From Turicibacter faecis (GTDB taxonomy: Bacteria > Bacillota_I > Bacilli_A > MOL361 > Turicibacteraceae): a stretch of DNA of 64,000 bases. Position 1 is the stretch's first letter. Each line of letters begins with the position of its first letter. A program made the translations under genes and the position numbers. Positions 7,644-52,096 of the stretch are shown one piece after another. The notes below the pieces were generated by a model. That model was given only the letters and a program-made list of their open reading frames with translations, searched no databases and had not been told where the DNA came from. Location of the stretch: assembly GCF_037076425.1 (NCBI RefSeq), contig NZ_AP028127.1, positions 526,001 through 590,000 on the forward strand. The letters run 5' to 3'.

Positions 7644-7801
7644 ATTAGAGACTTTAGTCTGTTGAACACGCAAAGCGTGTGAAACATAAAACCACCCGCT
7701 ATGCGGGTGGCGAATAAAAGTTTATAACTCCATTAAAAAATCACCTTTTTTCCTATAATAGAGTTGTTCAAGCTACTATTTTAGAAGAGAAGGTGATTTT
7801 T

Positions 7802-8257
7802 ATGGCGAATCAAACAAATAGTTTATCGCACACAAAATGGATGTGCAAATACCATATTGTGTTTACTCCTAAGTATAGACGAAAAATAATATATAATCAA
7901 TATAAAACAAGTATAAGAGATATTTTAAAACAACTTTGTGCCTATAAAGGAGTTGAAATTATTGAAGGGCATTTAATGCCAGATCATGTACATATGTTAG
8001 TAAGTATTCCACCTAAAATGAGTGTATCTAGTTTTATGGGATATTTGAAAGGAAAGAGTGCATTGATGATGTTTGATAAACATGCAAATTTGAAATACAA
8101 ATTTGGAAATCGGCATTTTTGGGCAGAAGGATATTATGTCAGTACGGTTGGCCTAAATGAGGCAACGATAAGGAAATATATTCAGGATCAGGAAAAGCAT
8201 GATATTGCGATGGATAAATTAAGTGTAAAAGAATATGAAGACCCCTTTAAGGGGTAG
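7802..8257 (+). CDS. tnpA: IS200/IS605 family transposase TnpA (Y1 HUH type)
   Basis: A 151-residue single-strand DNA transposase. The HUH metal-binding motif is the H62-V63-H64 of PDHVHMLVSIP, and the likely catalytic tyrosine is Y126 in ATIRKYIQDQ. Length matches the family, about 130-155 residues. ATG 7802 follows AGAAGGTGA at a good distance; an in-frame GTG at 7793 lies inside that SD. The last codons, including the stop, overlap a hairpin at 8241-8255 that begins the structured 3' region of the element. It appears intact and potentially active. Confidence 0.92.
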   Translation: MANQTNSLSHTKWMCKYHIVFTPKYRRKIIYNQYKTSIRDILKQLCAYKGVEIIEGHLMPDHVHMLVSIPPKMSVSSFMGYLKGKSALMMFDKHANLKYKFGNRHFWAEGYYVSTVGLNEATIRKYIQDQEKHDIAMDKLSVKEYEDPFKG

Positions 8258-8404: not shown

Positions 8405-8908
8405 TTATCCGTTGAAATAAATAAGGTTATTAATGATTTTGGGAGGTAAAGATTTAGACTAAAATAAAATTTTACTAAATTAAATAGAAAGTCATGGTGA
8501 GGTAAGCAGCCTTTGTCTTCCTTCTATCGTTATAATAAAAGGTCCCTTGAGGGCATTTCTTTCAATAAGAAGGGTGTACCGTAGTATCAAAAGTATTCTT
8601 TGATGATATAGACCCTTTTTTACTGTTTTATTTATAGCAAGTTATATATTAGCCATATGGATAGAATCTTCTATCTGAATAGGGAGAGGAGTATTAGCAG
8701 AAAGTAAGGTACTTAATGTTTTTCTCTTTTTCCGACATTTTAAAGAGAAATGAGGAGAAGTGTGTCAAAAAGCGATGATTTTAAAGGTGTAAACGATTAA
8801 CTTTTCCTTTATTTGAATAGTTTCGTCATAAGTTGAATGTTCAAAATGAAAGGATGATGTTAAAATGTTGTTATATGTTAAAGATTGTTTAATGGGGGGG
8901 AAGTTCCG
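8405..8908. other. Intergenic region before the IF2_N/GT5-N gene
   Basis: No gene is visible in about 500 bp. One copy of the galactose-type box TTTACTAAA lies at 8471-8479. A purine-rich SD, seven G followed by AAG, precedes the next start. I could not place a convincing promoter. Confidence 0.45.
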
Positions 8909-10069
8909 GTGAGAGTATACGAATTTGCTAGAAATTATGAAATGACAAGCAAGGAGCTTGTAGGGATTTGTCAGGAGTTAGGAATTAGTGTTAAAGCACA
9001 ATCAAAGTTAGATGAAAAACAATTATCAGCATTAAGCCAACATTTTAACCGTGAAGAAGGGCATGCTAAACCGATGGAGAATGTAAGTGAAGTGGAAGCG
9101 TGTTTAGTAGAAATGGATACAAACGATGAAGTGGAAGCGTGTTTAGTAGAGATGGATACGAATGATGAAGTAGAAGCGTGTTTGATTGAGATGGACACGA
9201 ACGATGAAGTAGAAGAGTGTTTGCTTGAGACGGATGCGAACGATGAAGTAGAAGAGTGTTTGCTTGAGACGGATGCGAACGACGGGATGGAAGAGGTAGT
9301 GATCGCAGATCAACCAGAGGAAGGAATCATTGGACGTAAAATGGCGTATATCGTGACGGAATGTGAGCCGTTTACTTCGCTTGGGGAACTTGGAAAAATT
9401 TCAGCTGAGTTTGCGAAAAAGAGGGTTAGCGAGGGCCACTCATTAGTGGTTGCATTACCTAAATATCGATCAATTACGGATGCCTATGGAAAAGAAATGG
9501 ATTGGCTAATGGACTTACCGGTTCGACTTGGAAATAAAACTGTTCGTGTTTCATTATTCAAATTAGTCATTGATTCGGTGACGTATTTATTTATTGGAAA
9601 TGATGGATATTTCCATCGTGACGATATCTATGGATATGACGATGACGTTGAACGATTTGCTTTCTTCAACCGTGCAGTGCTTGAAGCATTACCGTACTTA
9701 GGGGACGCCGTGGAAGAAATTCACTTAAATGATTGGCACACAAGTATGATTCCATTAATGTTAGAGGTAGATTACAAATCACGACCATTCTACCAAGGAG
9801 TTAAAACGATCTTAACGATCCATAATTTAGAATACCAGGGATGGTGTGAAGCTGAGATTTTACCATCGATTCTTGGAATTAGTCGTCAATATTATGAAAA
9901 TGGATTAACGCGTATGGGTGACGCGGTTAACCTATTAAAGAGTGGGATTGAAACGGCACATCAAATTCGATTACAAGGAATGAGCCAAAGCCAGCTAACA
10001 CTCCCACAAATTCAACAAAGTGGAATGGTGGCATTAATTGAGAATAAATTAAATCATCAAGTAGCCTAA
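8909..10069 (+). CDS. IF2_N domain fused to a degenerate glycogen synthase N-terminal (GT5) domain
   Basis: A 386-residue protein of unusual design. Residues 1-45 (RVYEFARNYEMTSKELVGIC) match the IF2_N domain found at the start of translation factor IF-2. Residues 61-125 are five tandem 13-residue acidic repeats. From residue 145 a GT5 glycogen/starch synthase N-domain is recognisable: YIVTECEPF, NDWHTS with the conserved histidine (H277), and TILTIHNLEYQG. The ADP-glucose-binding K-x-G-G motif is replaced by SLGELGK, and the C-terminal GT-B half with the catalytic glutamate is absent. It should therefore not be an active synthase. GTG 8909 is chosen because GGGGGAAG precedes it and IF2_N domains begin there; TTG 8885 is the alternative. 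A regulatory or scaffold role is inference. Confidence 0.7.
   Translation: MRVYEFARNYEMTSKELVGICQELGISVKAQSKLDEKQLSALSQHFNREEGHAKPMENVSEVEACLVEMDTNDEVEACLVEMDTNDEVEACLIEMDTNDEVEECLLETDANDEVEECLLETDANDGMEEVVIADQPEEGIIGRKMAYIVTECEPFTSLGELGKISAEFAKKRVSEGHSLVVALPKYRSITDAYGKEMDWLMDLPVRLGNKTVRVSLFKLVIDSVTYLFIGNDGYFHRDDIYGYDDDVERFAFFNRAVLEALPYLGDAVEEIHLNDWHTSMIPLMLEVDYKSRPFYQGVKTILTIHNLEYQGWCEAEILPSILGISRQYYENGLTRMGDAVNLLKSGIETAHQIRLQGMSQSQLTLPQIQQSGMVALIENKLNHQVA
9089..9283 (+). repeat. Five in-frame 39-bp tandem repeats (13 residues each)
   Basis: The unit encodes EVEACLVEMDTND, repeated five times with drift to EVEECLLETDAND in the last two copies. Each unit carries one cysteine and about five acidic residues. 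The first three copies are closely similar at DNA level, as are the last two, which points to two rounds of duplication by slippage or unequal exchange. Confidence 0.92.
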
Positions 10070-10135: not shown

Positions 10136-10183
10136 AAAAAGCGAGTGTGACATCCGATTAACGGTTCACCCTCGCTTTTTTAT
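10136..10183 (+). terminator. Intrinsic terminator after the IF2_N/GT5-N gene
   Basis: The arms AAAAAGCGAG and CTCGCTTTTT, with inner GTGA/TCAC pairing, form a long hairpin that ends in a T run. Confidence 0.82.
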
Positions 10184-10292: not shown

Positions 10293-11165
10293 ATGCAAAA
10301 AATAGGACGTAATGATAAATGTTGGTGTGGAAGTGGAAAGAAATATAAACAATGCCACTTAAAAATAGAAGAAAAAATTTCAAAACATTATCATCAAGGA
10401 GATGAAGTCCCAACCCGTGAATTATTAAAAACAAATGAACAAATTGAAGGGATTCGTAAAGCGGGGCGTGTGAATACGATGGTGCTTGATAAAATTGCAG
10501 AGGTGATTAAAGAGGGAATGAGCACTGAGGAATTAAACCAAATTGCTCATCAATATACGATCGAATTAGGCGGAACGCCGGCTCCGTTAAATTATCATGG
10601 GTTCCCTAAAAGTATTTGTACCTCAATTAATGAAGTTGTTTGTCATGGGATTCCAAGCCCAGATGAAATTTTAAAATCAGGTGACATTGTCAATGTGGAC
10701 GTCACAACGATTGTTGATGGCTACTATGCGGATGCTTCAAGAATGTTTATGATTGGGGAAGTGGACGAAGAAAAACAAAAACTCGTTCGTGTGGCCAAAG
10801 AATGTCTTGATTTAGGATTAAAAGCGGCACAGCCTTGGGGTTATATAGGGGATATTGGAGCGGTGATTTCCGAACATGCAGCACAATATGGCTATACGAT
10901 TGTTCAAAACATTGGTGGACATGGGGTCGGTGTTGAATTCCATGAGGAGCCTTACGTGAGCCATGTCGGCGTACGTGGAACAGACTGTCTGATTGTTCCA
11001 GGAATGACGTTTACGATTGAACCGATGTTAAATATGGGAGTTGCTGAAGTCGTTGAACATGAATCAGATGGATGGACCATCTATACAGCTGATCGTAAAC
11101 CATCAGCCCAATGGGAGTATACGATCTTAATTACCGAAGAAGGACCGGAAATTTTAACACATTAA
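10293..11165 (+). CDS. map: Type I methionine aminopeptidase with N-terminal SEC-C zinc motif
   Basis: A 290-residue enzyme that removes the initiator methionine from new proteins. The first 25 residues form a SEC-C motif, C10-W-C12-G-S-G-x5-C21-H22, which binds zinc and in SecA helps contact the ribosome or SecB. The rest is a complete M24A domain: the metal aspartates in VDVTT and DASRMF, the histidine in GGHGVGVEFHEEPY, and the glutamates in FTIEPML and QWEYTILIT. ATG 10293 follows AAAGGTGATG. It is a single-gene unit, unrelated to the sugar genes around it. SEC-C-bearing MAPs are a known variant in clostridia and relatives, so a second plain MAP may exist elsewhere; that is inference. Confidence 0.93.
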   Translation: MQKIGRNDKCWCGSGKKYKQCHLKIEEKISKHYHQGDEVPTRELLKTNEQIEGIRKAGRVNTMVLDKIAEVIKEGMSTEELNQIAHQYTIELGGTPAPLNYHGFPKSICTSINEVVCHGIPSPDEILKSGDIVNVDVTTIVDGYYADASRMFMIGEVDEEKQKLVRVAKECLDLGLKAAQPWGYIGDIGAVISEHAAQYGYTIVQNIGGHGVGVEFHEEPYVSHVGVRGTDCLIVPGMTFTIEPMLNMGVAEVVEHESDGWTIYTADRKPSAQWEYTILITEEGPEILTH

Positions 11166-27413: not shown

Positions 27414-27534
27414 TCAAACAACTGGATGTCTACTTGGAACCTTTTGCTAATTGTTGTGAAGGAATATTTTTTTCTTAATATACGTCCAAGGGATGTGCTA
27501 TAATAATATAAAACTTTTCAAAGGAGTGAGGAAA

Positions 27535-28773
27535 ATGTTAGAAACGTTAAAATTTAGACGTCAAAAATTAGGGGGAAATATTAAAGATAATTCATTACTA
27601 ATTATTTTCTCAGGAGAGGCGCCTGTACGATCAGGAGATCAGTTTTATGACTATACACCTCACCGTAACTTCTACTATTTAACGAATTTAGACCAACCGA
27701 AGATGGCCTATGTTTTACGTAAATATAACGGTGTGATGGAAGAATATTTATTTATTGAACAAGTAACAGAGCTCGAAGAAAAATGGACAGGTAAACGTTT
27801 AAGTAAGGAAGAAGCAACTAAAAAATCAGGGATTAAAAATGTATTACCGATTGATGAACTGCGTACGGTTCTTGGTCGATGGTTATTAAATGATAACTTT
27901 GAGAATGCCTATTTTGATTTTGAGCGTGGATCTTATCAGCATGCAGATACCGTTCAAGTCTTATTTGCTAAGGAATTAAAGCGTCAATATCCATTTTTAC
28001 ACGTTCAAAATATTTATCATGATATCACCGCTTTACGTTTAATTAAATCAGAAGATGAAATCACCAACATGCGAACTGCGATTGAAAAAACTCGTTTAGG
28101 GATTGAAGCTTTAATGAGAAATTCTAAACCTGGAATGTATGAGTATCAATTAGAAGCACATTACGATTTTGTGATTAAAACTGAGGGAGTAAAACATACG
28201 TCGTTCCATACGATTGCTGCGGCTGGTGCTAATGCGACGGTTCTTCACTACGATAAGAGTACATCCCTTTGCCAAGATGGAGATTTAATTTTATTTGATC
28301 TTGGATGCGAATGGAATTACTATTGTTCAGATATTTCACGAACTTTCCCAATTAACGGAAAATTCAGTGATCGTCAACGTGAAGTCTACGAGGCTGTTTT
28401 AGAAGCTCAAATGGAAATTATCAATAACGTTAGACCAGGACTTTCAATGCAAGATTTAAATGAATTTGCGCGTAAAAGATTGGCAGAGGCGTGTCAAAAA
28501 GTAGGATTAATTGAGAAGGAAGAAGACGTAGAGAAGTATTATTATCATAAAATTGGTCACTATTTAGGATTAGATACACATGATGTTGGAGGTCGTGGTG
28601 GAATTTTACAACCAGGAATGGTCATTACGATTGAGCCAGGACTTTATATTGCGGAAGAAGGAATTGGAATTCGTATTGAAGATGATATTCTTGTCACAAA
28701 GGATGGTCATGAAAACTTATCAAAAGATATTATCAAATCAGTCGATGATATTGAAAACTTTATGAAAAAATAA
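27535..28773 (+). CDS. pepP: Xaa-Pro aminopeptidase (M24B)
   Basis: A 412-residue metallopeptidase that removes N-terminal residues before proline. The N-terminal AMP_N domain (FSGEAPVRSGDQFYDYTPHR) precedes an M24 catalytic domain with the metal ligands in DLGCEWNYYCSDISR, HKIGHYLGLDTHDVG, ITIEPGLY and IRIEDDILVT. ATG 27535 follows AAAGGAGTGAGG; an upstream ATG 27493 lacks an SD. A terminator follows closely. The symbol is by family resemblance. Confidence 0.9.
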   Translation: MLETLKFRRQKLGGNIKDNSLLIIFSGEAPVRSGDQFYDYTPHRNFYYLTNLDQPKMAYVLRKYNGVMEEYLFIEQVTELEEKWTGKRLSKEEATKKSGIKNVLPIDELRTVLGRWLLNDNFENAYFDFERGSYQHADTVQVLFAKELKRQYPFLHVQNIYHDITALRLIKSEDEITNMRTAIEKTRLGIEALMRNSKPGMYEYQLEAHYDFVIKTEGVKHTSFHTIAAAGANATVLHYDKSTSLCQDGDLILFDLGCEWNYYCSDISRTFPINGKFSDRQREVYEAVLEAQMEIINNVRPGLSMQDLNEFARKRLAEACQKVGLIEKEEDVEKYYYHKIGHYLGLDTHDVGGRGGILQPGMVITIEPGLYIAEEGIGIRIEDDILVTKDGHENLSKDIIKSVDDIENFMKK

Positions 28774-43584: not shown

Positions 43585-44757
43585 ATGGCAGTTAATAGTG
43601 TCGCTATGATATTAGCTGGGGGGAAAGGAACCCGATTAAAAGAGCTAACCATTCATCGTCCTAAGCCTGCCGTATCATTTGCAGGAAAGTATCGTCTAAT
43701 AGACTTTGTCCTAAGTAATTGTACAAATTCAGGAATTGATCAGGTTGGGGTATTAACACAATATGAACCGTTAGAATTAAATAGTTATATTGGAGAGGGG
43801 AGTTCATGGGATCTTGATGTCCATGGGGCATCTGTTACATTAATGGGTCCTTATACGTCTCGTGATTATGGGTTCTTATGGCAAGGGGGAACAGCGGAGG
43901 CTGTCATATTAAATATGCCGTTTATTGAGCAATATAACCCAGATTATTTATTAGTTTTATCGGCAGATCATATTTATAAAATGGATTATCGTAAGCTGAT
44001 TGACTATCATATTGAAAAGGGATCTCAATTGACAATTTCAACGATTCGTGTTCCCGAAGAAGAGACTAAAAGATTTGGAATGCTGAAGGTTAATCATGAA
44101 AATCGAGTGATAGAGTTTGAAGAAAAGCCTCAGAAAACAGAAAGTCGTTTAGCATCGATGGGGGTCTATGTTTTTAGTTGGAAGAAGTTTAAAGATGATA
44201 TTATTCATAAGTATCAAAGACATCTTTATGAGGGGGTCGACTTTGCTCAAGATGTTATTCCTTACTTTATCGAGACGAACTCAGCTGTGTTTGCTTATGA
44301 GTACAAAGGGTACTGGCGCGATGTTGGAACGGTTGAAGGTTATTGGAAAGCACACATGGATTTATTGGATTCCGATAATGATTTAAATCTTCATGATTAT
44401 AGTTGGCCTATTTTCTCAAAAACACCTAACCTCCCGCCACATCATATCTTAAAGGATGCGAAGGTCCGAAATGCTTGGATTAATGAGGGAAGCATGGTTT
44501 TCGGTGAAGTATATGATTCAATCATCGGTCATCGTTGCATTATTCAAGAGCGTTCCATTGTTGAAAAAAGTGTCATTTTAACAAGTGCTCAAATTGAACA
44601 TGATTGCCATATTAGTTATGCTGTTATCGGGGATGACGTTGTGATTCCGGCTCATACTGAGATTCATGGCGATGAAACGAATATTGTTTTGGTGACAAAT
44701 GATAATTTAGAAGAAATTCTTGAGCATCAGGGGAGGGGAGAAGATCATGAAAAATAA
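43585..44757 (+). CDS. glgC: Glucose-1-phosphate adenylyltransferase catalytic subunit
   Basis: A 390-residue enzyme that makes ADP-glucose from ATP and glucose-1-phosphate. Catalytic-subunit signatures are intact: AGGKGTRLKELT at the start, WQGGTAEAV, the sugar-binding LSADHIYKMDY, and EEKPQ. The C-terminal left-handed beta-helix follows. ATG 43585 follows AAGGGGAGGGG. It overlaps the next gene by 11 bp, which suggests tight coupling to its GlgD partner part. Confidence 0.95.
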   Translation: MAVNSVAMILAGGKGTRLKELTIHRPKPAVSFAGKYRLIDFVLSNCTNSGIDQVGVLTQYEPLELNSYIGEGSSWDLDVHGASVTLMGPYTSRDYGFLWQGGTAEAVILNMPFIEQYNPDYLLVLSADHIYKMDYRKLIDYHIEKGSQLTISTIRVPEEETKRFGMLKVNHENRVIEFEEKPQKTESRLASMGVYVFSWKKFKDDIIHKYQRHLYEGVDFAQDVIPYFIETNSAVFAYEYKGYWRDVGTVEGYWKAHMDLLDSDNDLNLHDYSWPIFSKTPNLPPHHILKDAKVRNAWINEGSMVFGEVYDSIIGHRCIIQERSIVEKSVILTSAQIEHDCHISYAVIGDDVVIPAHTEIHGDETNIVLVTNDNLEEILEHQGRGEDHEK

Positions 44758-47194
44758 GGCATTGTGTGTGATTGATGGAACGAATACTTCCCAATCGCTT
44801 CAAAACTTACTAAATCAGCGTTGTGTGGCTGCCCTACCTTTTGCAGGACGTTATCGTTTAGTCGATTTCGCCCTATCGAATGCCGTCCATTCTGGGATTA
44901 CAAATGTATCAATTTTTCCGGATGGGGACTATCACTCATTAAGTGACCACATCCGATCAGGAAAATTTTGGGGACTTGATCGTAAAGTCGATGGGCTATT
45001 CTTGCTTCCTCCTAAAAAAGAGGTAAGTGCCATTGCAAATACTCTCACTTTTGCTCGAATGAGGGAATATATTGAATATTTCCTTCGTTCCCGACAAAAA
45101 TATGTGGTTTTATACCATGCCAATATTATTACGACCATTCCATTTGAAGAATTGGTTCAGTCACATATCGATTCCAAATCAGATGTGACTCAGGTTCATT
45201 ATCGGAATAAACCGGTTAATATTTTTGTTTTATCACGTGAATATTTAATTGATTTAATTTTAAAATATGAAATTTCCCCTTATCAAACGGTTCTTGATTT
45301 AGTTGAAATGAATGACGGGATTAAAATTAATCGTTATGAGCATCGTATTTACACGCGGACCATTGATTCTATTTTGTCGTACTATCGAGCAAATCTTGAT
45401 ATGCTACACTATGAGTATGGGTTTCAAATTTTCTTGCTTGAGCGTCCCGTTCTTACGAAGACAAAAGATGAATCACCGACGTTTTATACGAAACAGGCCG
45501 ATGTCACCAATTCAATGATTGCAAATGGGTGTCGAATTGAAGGTAAGGTTGAAAACTGTGTGCTATTTCGGGATGTAACGATTAAACGAGGGGCCATTGT
45601 TAGAAACTCGGTTATTTTACCTCGAACGGTTATTGGGGAAAATAGTATTATTGAACAGGTCATTACGGATAAGCACGTTTATATTAGTGACGGGGCTCGC
45701 CTGAGTGGTCAAGAGTATACCCCTATTGTTATTGGAAAGGGACAGCGAGTGATTGGTAATAAAGGAATTAGCGTCGCTCAAATCTCAACTGAATGTGTAC
45801 CATTCTATAAAACGGGGGGACTCGCTGATGTAACGTTTGAACTCACACAGGAACTTATTAATCAGGGGTTAAATGTAGATGTTATTTTACCACTTTTTAA
45901 CTCATTGTCTGATCGATACCAGGAAAATTTAAGTCATGAATTAAGATCGGTTGCTGTGATAGGGAAATTGGATGTTCCTTATGATGTTTATCGTTATACG
46001 AAAGATGGAATTAATTATTATTTCATTTCATGTGGGGAGTTAACACGTGAAAAATTATATGGTTATCGTGATGATTGTCAACGTTATGAATTATACTGTT
46101 ATCTCGCTTTAGATTTTATTGAAAAAAGCGGACATAAATACGATATTATTCATTCTCATGACTGGTTAACGGGTCTAGTTCCATATTTCATGAAAAATGT
46201 ATTCGCAAAAAGAAGCAATCACTTTATGTTTACAAAAACAGTGTTTACGATTCATAATATTCATTATCAAGGAATATGCGATGTATCGGATTTAGCCATT
46301 ATTTCGCAATTTGATTCGATACCAAATGAAGTGATGCTATTTGAAAAAGTCAACTTTATGAAAACGGCTATTGTAACAAGTGATGAGGTGACAACCGTTT
46401 CTGAAACTTATTGTAATGAAATTTGTTATCCATATTTTGCGGAGGGGCTTGATCGCTTTATTGTCGCACGAAAAGATCATTTACATGGTATTTTAAATGG
46501 GATTAATTATAATTATAATAATCCGGCAACGGATTTGAGTATTTATAAACGATATACACCGAAGACCGTTGAAAATAAGAAAGAGAATAAATGTCAAATG
46601 CAACGTGAATTAGGACTTCCAGTGAATCCAAATGTGCCGGTCATTGGAATGGTTTCGCGTTTAGTTGAACAAAAGGGGTTTGATCTTATTTTAAAGGTCT
46701 TTGAAGAACTCATGAATGAAAATGTTCAATTCGTTTTATTAGGCGATGGGGATTACAAATATACGAGTTTCTTTAAGGCAATGGCCCAAAAGTACCCGAA
46801 TAAGGTTTCTGTAAATATCGGATTTTACTCATATAATTCTCAAATGATCTATGCAGGAAGTGACCTTTTCTTAATGCCTTCACGTTTTGAACCGTGTGGG
46901 ATTAGCCAAATGATAGCATTAAAATATGGAACGATCCCGGTTGTAAGGGAAACAGGGGGATTAAAGGATACTATTATTCCATATAATGAATTTATTCAAC
47001 ATGGAAATGGATTCGGTTTTGCTCACTATAACGCGCATGATATGTTGTTTACATTAAAGCGTGCGATTAATTTTTATCATATGCCTGAACATTGGGATAA
47101 ATTAGTTCAGAGTGCCATGAGTCAAGATTTAAGTTGGAAAAATTCAACGGAAAAATATATTAATCTTTATAGAAATTTAATTAATGAAGAGTAG
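44747..47194 (+). CDS. glgDA: Fused GlgD (ADP-glucose pyrophosphorylase regulatory subunit) and GlgA (glycogen synthase)
   Basis: An 815-residue protein joining two enzymes that are normally separate. Residues 1 to about 340 are GlgD: a nucleotidyltransferase fold without the catalytic signature (VIDGTNTSQSL replaces AGGKGTRL), the FAGRYRLVDFALSN motif, and the beta-helix repeats. The joint has almost no linker (IGKGQRVIGNKG), and then GlgA begins: STECVPFYKTGGLADV with the ADP-glucose lysine near 355, HSHDWLTG, IHNIHYQG, and the C-terminal catalytic RFEPCGISQMIALKYG near 714. All key GT5 residues are present, so the synthase should be active. ATG 44747 overlaps glgC and follows GGGGAGGGGAG. 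Confidence 0.93.
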   Translation: MKNKALCVIDGTNTSQSLQNLLNQRCVAALPFAGRYRLVDFALSNAVHSGITNVSIFPDGDYHSLSDHIRSGKFWGLDRKVDGLFLLPPKKEVSAIANTLTFARMREYIEYFLRSRQKYVVLYHANIITTIPFEELVQSHIDSKSDVTQVHYRNKPVNIFVLSREYLIDLILKYEISPYQTVLDLVEMNDGIKINRYEHRIYTRTIDSILSYYRANLDMLHYEYGFQIFLLERPVLTKTKDESPTFYTKQADVTNSMIANGCRIEGKVENCVLFRDVTIKRGAIVRNSVILPRTVIGENSIIEQVITDKHVYISDGARLSGQEYTPIVIGKGQRVIGNKGISVAQISTECVPFYKTGGLADVTFELTQELINQGLNVDVILPLFNSLSDRYQENLSHELRSVAVIGKLDVPYDVYRYTKDGINYYFISCGELTREKLYGYRDDCQRYELYCYLALDFIEKSGHKYDIIHSHDWLTGLVPYFMKNVFAKRSNHFMFTKTVFTIHNIHYQGICDVSDLAIISQFDSIPNEVMLFEKVNFMKTAIVTSDEVTTVSETYCNEICYPYFAEGLDRFIVARKDHLHGILNGINYNYNNPATDLSIYKRYTPKTVENKKENKCQMQRELGLPVNPNVPVIGMVSRLVEQKGFDLILKVFEELMNENVQFVLLGDGDYKYTSFFKAMAQKYPNKVSVNIGFYSYNSQMIYAGSDLFLMPSRFEPCGISQMIALKYGTIPVVRETGGLKDTIIPYNEFIQHGNGFGFAHYNAHDMLFTLKRAINFYHMPEHWDKLVQSAMSQDLSWKNSTEKYINLYRNLINEE

Positions 47195-51199: not shown

Positions 51200-52096
51200 A
51201 TGATTCATCAAGTAGTGAATCAGACATCAACTAAATTTAAATCTTTAATTTCTCATTTATGCGATAGTCTTGGTGTTTCAAGATCAGGTTATTATCGTTA
51301 TTTTTCGTTATGTGCTGAAGAAGCTCGTTTAAAGCGATTAAAGGAGGAACAACATCGTTTAGAAGTTATTCAAAAGGCCATTTGTTTTAAGGGACGAAAA
51401 AACAAGGGAATTCGCCAAGTAGCGATGGTTCTTAAAGGGGAATTCAACATTATCTTTAACCTAAAATCTATTCATCGAATCATGAAAAAGTATGGACTAT
51501 TGAGTCAAGTTCGTCGAAGCAATCCCTATCGTAAACTCGCTAAAGCGACACAAGCACATCGTGTCTGTCCAAATCTTGTTAATCGTCAATTTAGGCCATT
51601 AGAACCTTATAAAGTTCTATTAACCGATATCACTTATTTAAAATATGGAAAGGGTCAGACTGCCTATCTCTCGACCATCTTAGATAGTGCAACAAATGAA
51701 GTTTTAGCTTTTCAATTAAGTGAGCATTTAAAGATAGATTTTGTTCTCCAAACACTGAACCAACTTCAAGAAAATCCGACTGTCCAATTAACGAAGGAAA
51801 CGATTATTCACTCCGATCAGGGCGTGCATTATACGAGTCCGCAATTTTCGAATCAATTAAAGGAATTAGGAATTCAACAATCAATGTCTAGGAAGGGGAA
51901 TTGTTGGGATAACGCTCCACAAGAATCATTTTTTGGGCATCTAAAAGATGAAGCAGATATAACCAATCAACTGACATTTGATGATTTACTCATTGAAATT
52001 GAAGAATATATAGATTATCATAACAACTTTAGATATCAATGGAATTTAAAAAAGCTGACTCCTGTAGGATACAGAAATCAGCTTCAAGTTGCTTAG
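51200..52096 (+). CDS. IS3-family OrfB (DDE integrase domain)
   Basis: A 298-residue transposase catalytic part. An HTH_21 domain (GVSRSGYYRYFS, KNKGIRQVAMVLKGE) precedes the rve-type core. The DDE residues are D in LLTDITYLKYG, D in IIHSDQGVHYTS, and E in NAPQESFFGHLKDE. The usual C-terminal end YHNNFRYQWNLKKLTPVGYR is present. It is normally made by frameshift from orfA; ATG 51200 may allow a separate OrfB. Confidence 0.92.
   Translation: MIHQVVNQTSTKFKSLISHLCDSLGVSRSGYYRYFSLCAEEARLKRLKEEQHRLEVIQKAICFKGRKNKGIRQVAMVLKGEFNIIFNLKSIHRIMKKYGLLSQVRRSNPYRKLAKATQAHRVCPNLVNRQFRPLEPYKVLLTDITYLKYGKGQTAYLSTILDSATNEVLAFQLSEHLKIDFVLQTLNQLQENPTVQLTKETIIHSDQGVHYTSPQFSNQLKELGIQQSMSRKGNCWDNAPQESFFGHLKDEADITNQLTFDDLLIEIEEYIDYHNNFRYQWNLKKLTPVGYRNQLQVA

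Follow-up and report, generated by a model that had tools for sequence, protein, structure and literature searches.

Organization of the half gene

The window, i.e. the whole stretch of 64,000 nt of Turicibacter faecis DNA that was analysed, carries a gene for a 386-amino-acid protein in which an IF2_N domain is followed by a repeat-bearing linker and by the N-terminal half of a GT5 enzyme (the half protein and half gene, hereafter). Comparisons were made at the family level, including a second genus (genome G006), and were extended to a family of another order (f8). The relevant features are as follows:

8727..8908, + strand: 5′ non-coding stretch, conserved among four species of the genus and bearing a GGGGGG ribosome-binding site (alignment)
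8909..10069, + strand: coding sequence, 386 aa, GTG start, IF2_N - repeat-bearing linker - GT5 N-half (Pfam and alignment)
8909..9055, + strand: IF2_N domain, residues 1-49, N1 type as judged from N1 versus N2 scores (Pfam PF04760, E 3.1e-9; predicted three-helix domain, pLDDT ~94)
9088..9282, + strand: five in-frame 39-bp repeats encoding 13-aa acidic units, consensus ~EVEACLVEMDTND (repeat search, alignment, model)
9344..9967, + strand: GT5 N-terminal (acceptor-side) Rossmann-like domain, residues 146-353 (Pfam PF08323, E 2.1e-48; structure match to starch synthases, best Z 17.4)
9368..9397, + strand: degenerate K-x-G-G-L-A-D motif, PFTSLGELGK replacing PF.K.GGLAD (alignment)
9731..9736, + strand: retained Asp-Trp (E. 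coli D137-W138), found in 12 of 13 orthologs, with Glu-Trp in one
10136..10180, + strand: hairpin and T-run, a likely terminator (fold -21.2 kcal/mol, z -5.0)

The window gene has a GTG start codon, and an ATG is found at or adjacent to the aligned position in three congeners and in G006. Two Pfam domains were recognized in the product, with no further convincing match along its 386 residues: IF2_N at 1-49 (36.9 bits for a cut-off of 25.3) and Glyco_transf_5 at 146-353 (165.6 bits for a cut-off of 22.7), the GT5 domain extending beyond residue 353 towards the stop codon. These matches bear out a sequence-only reading of the locus, which had likened residues 1-45 to the IF-2 N-terminal domain and residue 145 onward to the GT5 N-domain. 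The NCBIfam cut-offs for GlgA were missed by far (198 versus 603 bits for NF001898, 143 versus 328 for TIGR02095), since the protein has no more than roughly the first 212 of 477 positions.

The same reading had held that the C-terminal GT half is missing, and had allowed for a frameshift or assembly error that would restore it. Pfam shows no such domain, and a search for a GT1-half remnant 3′ of the stop codon found none; the intergenic stretch contains short ORFs and the likely terminator only, the latter setting the half gene apart from the one for methionine aminopeptidase at 10293. A half-domain, together with recent-looking repeats in one species, might be the product of gene decay or of faulty assembly, but the comparative data already refute this explanation and we give it practically no weight: the gene is not broken, since there are 13 intact copies (none with an internal stop) that are subject to purifying selection and share one end point, just short of the hinge by which GlgA continues into its second half.

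The array of five 13-residue repeats, also noticed at the outset, corresponds to the 39-bp units (91% matches, TRF score 243). They occupy residues 61-125, within a linker predicted to be disordered (pLDDT ~32). The repeats are found in this species only and look recent; as the other orthologs do without them, they were discarded as a defining part of the protein.

Upstream of the gene, the string TGTAAACGRTTAAC (8788-8801, about 107 bp before the start) is present in all four genus members and was not found elsewhere in the fetched loci; its sequence resembles a LacI-family or cre operator. The leader string GTGTCAAAAAG recurs at 28491, where it lies within coding sequence. No convincing RNA structure was seen in the conserved 5′ region, and an Rfam search of the window gave no match.

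The IF2_N domain is of the N1 type

A profile built from 13 IF2_N segments of the family gave 21-48 bits with the N1 copy of IF-2, while its scores with the N2 copy stayed in the noise, no higher than about 3 bits; by sequence the domain is clearly of the N1 type. The half protein thus resembles IF-2 in having the same N1-type domain (PF04760) at its start, followed by a flexible linker, and differs from it by the absence of the GTPase and other IF-2 domains (no such Pfam match). In E. coli, pull-down and cross-linking showed that the N1 sub-domain of IF2 (aa 1-50) binds the KH2/AR1 part of NusA (PMC12297416); whether this binding holds beyond E. coli is not known, according to the authors of that work. 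In a congener, the NusA end seen upstream of the IF-2 gene seems to have nothing beyond the KH domains, and a contact including AR1, as in E. coli, cannot therefore be assumed. NusA binding by the half protein is a prediction made by analogy, to be taken as a lead and not as a result.

A GT5 half that has probably lost catalysis

Residues were numbered as in E. coli glycogen synthase, via an alignment comprising 38 canonical GT5 rows and 13 half proteins. In the window protein the canonical K15-x-G17-G18-L-A-D21 has become S-L-G-E-L-G-K, in agreement with the initial remark that SLGELGK replaces K-x-G-G. K15 is found in 35 of the 38 canonical rows, and G17/G18 in all of them. The motif is broken in every one of the half proteins, with Ser, Asn or Thr at the K15 position in 12 of 13; in the remaining one, from f8, a lysine falls at that position of a motif one residue shorter. 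The TVS.TY motif is lost from all 13, G17/G18, S212 and Y215 are widely lost, and H161/N162 are lost from nine, being kept in the genus Turicibacter and not in G006 or f8. The pocket residues D137-W138, Y165, Q166 and G167 are kept nearly everywhere.

In a ColabFold model, computed from the window proteins and those of six loci (L052-L056 and L058), pLDDT was ~94 in IF2_N and ~32 in the linker, and the GT5 half had values mostly of 50-89. As the sequence-only reading had proposed, the model was compared with GlgA and its relatives: the GT5 half matched solved GT5 enzymes with Z scores of 12.6-17.4 (the best, 17.4, over 162 residues at 2.3 A), and Foldseek retrieved starch and glycogen synthases (E to 1.6e-10). 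The half protein is thus similar to GlgA (PF08323/TIGR02095) in its N-terminal half, both in sequence (E ~1e-48) and in fold, and differs from it by lacking the C-terminal GT1 half and an intact K-x-G-G, by changes in other canonical residues, and by the added IF2_N domain and linker.

In GT-B enzymes the donor site sits in the C-terminal GT1 half, and with this half missing it is not plausible that the half-GT5 chain alone transfers ADP-glucose. That the protein is non-catalytic, as had been supposed, is well supported by comparison of the orthologs: the GT1 half is gone, K-x-G-G is broken throughout, other canonical residues are partly lost, and purifying selection persists. Retention of D137, W138, Y165, Q166 and G167 could be taken to mean that the GT5 half has acquired a new activity of its own, or that it assembles in trans with a separate GT1-type half. 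We regard this as very unlikely, given the loss of K-x-G-G and of the donor half and, outside the genus Turicibacter, of H161/N162; furthermore, no GT1-only partner was seen beside the half gene at the loci inspected.

Distribution, selection and origin

A survey of related genomes, as had been suggested, found the IF2_N - linker - GT5-half order in 13 genomes of two families belonging to two orders, i.e. five of eight in the gene's own family and eight of eight in f8. Identity to the window protein is 58-64% in three congeners, 44% in G006 (L052), and 22-28% in f8 (five of the eight orthologs aligned). Values of dN/dS (NG86) ran from 0.12 to 0.23 among the genus members and from 0.07 to 0.26 among those of f8, with high dS in several pairs; on these codon comparisons the half protein is under purifying selection. 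What can be said of the distribution beyond the sampled class comes from a pattern scan of genome contigs, with patterns that would miss f8-like copies; its only further copy is the gene of G006. Viral contigs searched with two alignments yielded no relatives, and no name or description of the family was found in paper searches confined to an open-access library.

The 13 halves formed one group (support 87/76) when a tree was built from 52 GT5 N-domains; the GlgD-GlgA fusion and the ordinary GlgA that their genomes also encode fell elsewhere. One origin was recovered in 92% of bootstrap trees. This is moderate support, from sequence, for a single origin. Among the matches listed for 395 genomes of the class, the sole other protein with both domains is a full-length IF2_N-GlgA fusion in G308 (L077 706-2313, minus strand; G308:C2:442914-443792), of 535 aa, with both GT halves and the motif PFVRETGLADV (K15R, G17T). 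Its gene adjoins a prmC-like gene, and the GlgA encoded at that place in G047, a related genome, carries no IF2_N. This fusion shares with the half proteins the joining of IF2_N to GT5, and differs in its two GT halves and its substitutions. Since the tree places it with the GlgA proteins of the family it comes from, it was rejected as the origin of the halves, and IF2_N and GT5 have probably been joined twice.

Gene neighbourhood

The half gene is close to pgcA, which encodes a PgcA-like phosphosugar mutase, in eight of nine orthologs outside the genus: the distance is 2-5 kb in seven of the eight f8 genomes and 2 kb in G006. It is 30 kb in the window genome and 43-51 kb in the three congeners. 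With neighbours named by sequence similarity, the usual order in f8 is the PgcA-like mutase, aminopeptidase P, an aldose-1-epimerase-like protein (240-263 aa) and the half protein, the last gene being convergent with one that we take to be for oligoendopeptidase F. G310 has a different order, and G014 and G308 carry extra genes before the half gene. An aminopeptidase P resembling the one near the half gene in f8 is encoded at 27493-28773 of the window.

The epimerase-like genes upstream of the half gene in f8 are degenerate (examples are L063 4359-5105, L061 6263-7000 and L096 10205-10996). Their products have neither the histidines of the HGG and T-Q-H-A-Y-F motifs nor the late glutamate of the window's ordinary epimerase, residues whose catalytic roles are established in the aldose-1-epimerase family, so that two degenerate sugar enzymes are encoded near each other. 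In the genus Turicibacter the half gene has a galactoside transporter gene on one side and, on the other, the genes for methionine aminopeptidase and, farther on, beta-galactosidase. An IS200-like transposase gene (7793-8257) lies between the transporter and half genes of the window and was not seen at that place in genomes G001 and G003; a transposase gene of the IS3 type is found at 51200-52096.

These neighbours suggest another role: the protein could regulate or scaffold the metabolism of hexose phosphates or galactosides (PgcA and others), and IF2_N would then be no more than a generic domain for binding proteins, unconnected with translation or transcription. It would account for the pgcA gene at about 5 kb or nearer in most genomes outside the genus, for the degenerate epimerase-like neighbour in f8, and for the position of the window gene between galactoside transport and beta-galactosidase genes. 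However, the N1-type pattern has been retained beyond what would be expected of a mere generic fold, and synteny alone does not demonstrate an interaction. We hold this explanation to be possible, though on the unlikely side.

Relation to glycogen synthesis

The sequence-only reading placed a normal GlgA, fused to GlgD, 36 kb from the half gene. The fusion is indeed there, at 44720-47194, but it is not the only GlgA: a second one, with its own GlgC, lies about 97 kb away, outside the window (G000:C1:631994-632656, L003), so that the genome has two glycogen gene clusters. The half gene is outside the window's glycogen operons. In five f8 genomes (G014, G025, G036, G309 and G310) no GT5 other than the half protein exceeds the Pfam cut-off, and no protein reaches that of NCBIfam for GlgC; the listed completeness is 100% for G014 and G036, 99% for G025, 91% for G309 and 85% for G310. 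All five retain a glycogen/maltodextrin phosphorylase. Conversely, G005 and G007 have GlgA and GlgC and no half gene. Glycogen synthesis can thus do without the half protein, and the half protein without glycogen synthesis.

The proposed link to glycogen metabolism does not stand up, then, as a general role; the phyletic profiles contradict a glycogen regulator of that scope. A more specific form of the idea is a subunit that would regulate or scaffold glycogen synthesis by binding GlgA or glycogen and connecting it to ribosomes. It has several points in its favour: the GT5 origin of the half, the two GlgA genes, GlgC and phosphorylase of the window genome, the fusion of IF2_N to a full GlgA in G308, and a plant protein, STARCH SYNTHASE 5 (SS5), which is derived from GT5, lacks the C-terminal GT1 domain, is described as non-enzymatic and promotes granule initiation. 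SS5 is the closest precedent for the pseudoenzyme half, being likewise a GT5 half devoid of GT1. But its partner domain is another one, and SS5 has its role at starch granules; the bacterial family is kept where both GlgA and GlgC are missing. Given also the reverse situation in G005 and G007 and the location of the gene outside glycogen operons, we consider a glycogen subunit improbable.

Possible function of the family

At present, the explanation that we favour, tentatively and at slightly less than an even chance, is that of a conserved pseudoenzyme family acting on gene expression. The pseudoenzyme status is well supported by sequence; where the protein docks and what it binds we can only infer. 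The N1-type IF2_N domain would be a tether, connected by the flexible linker to an acceptor-side GT5 half without catalysis, and would dock where the N-terminus of IF2 normally docks, at NusA/RNA polymerase or at the initiating ribosome. The degenerate GT5 half would serve hexose/galactoside metabolism as a platform that responds to sugar or binds proteins, in line with the pgcA neighbourhood, and the protein would tune or localize gene expression and make no glycogen. Several points count against this proposal: the apparent end of NusA after its KH domains in a congener, the looser synteny with pgcA in the genus Turicibacter (30-51 kb), the changes at H161/N162 outside it, and the moderate support for a single origin of the halves. 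In a narrower version, the protein could be a sensor that mimics the IF2 N-terminus at the transcription or translation-initiation machinery, with the degenerate GT5 half as a sugar-sensing or partner-binding head. This seems to us unlikely, a shade more so than the purely metabolic scaffold; if true, sugar state and gene expression would be physically linked by an IF2-mimicking sensor.

Dead starch-synthase halves have already been described in plants, as SS5. The bacterial family adds to such a half the N-terminal sub-domain of IF2 and outlasts glycogen synthesis; as it persists in species unable to make glycogen, its members are probably non-enzymatic adaptors or sensors rather than polymer makers. 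Since the N1 sub-domain of E. coli IF2 binds NusA, the family offers a testable case in which sugar metabolism may reach the transcription-translation interface by means of a borrowed IF2 tether.
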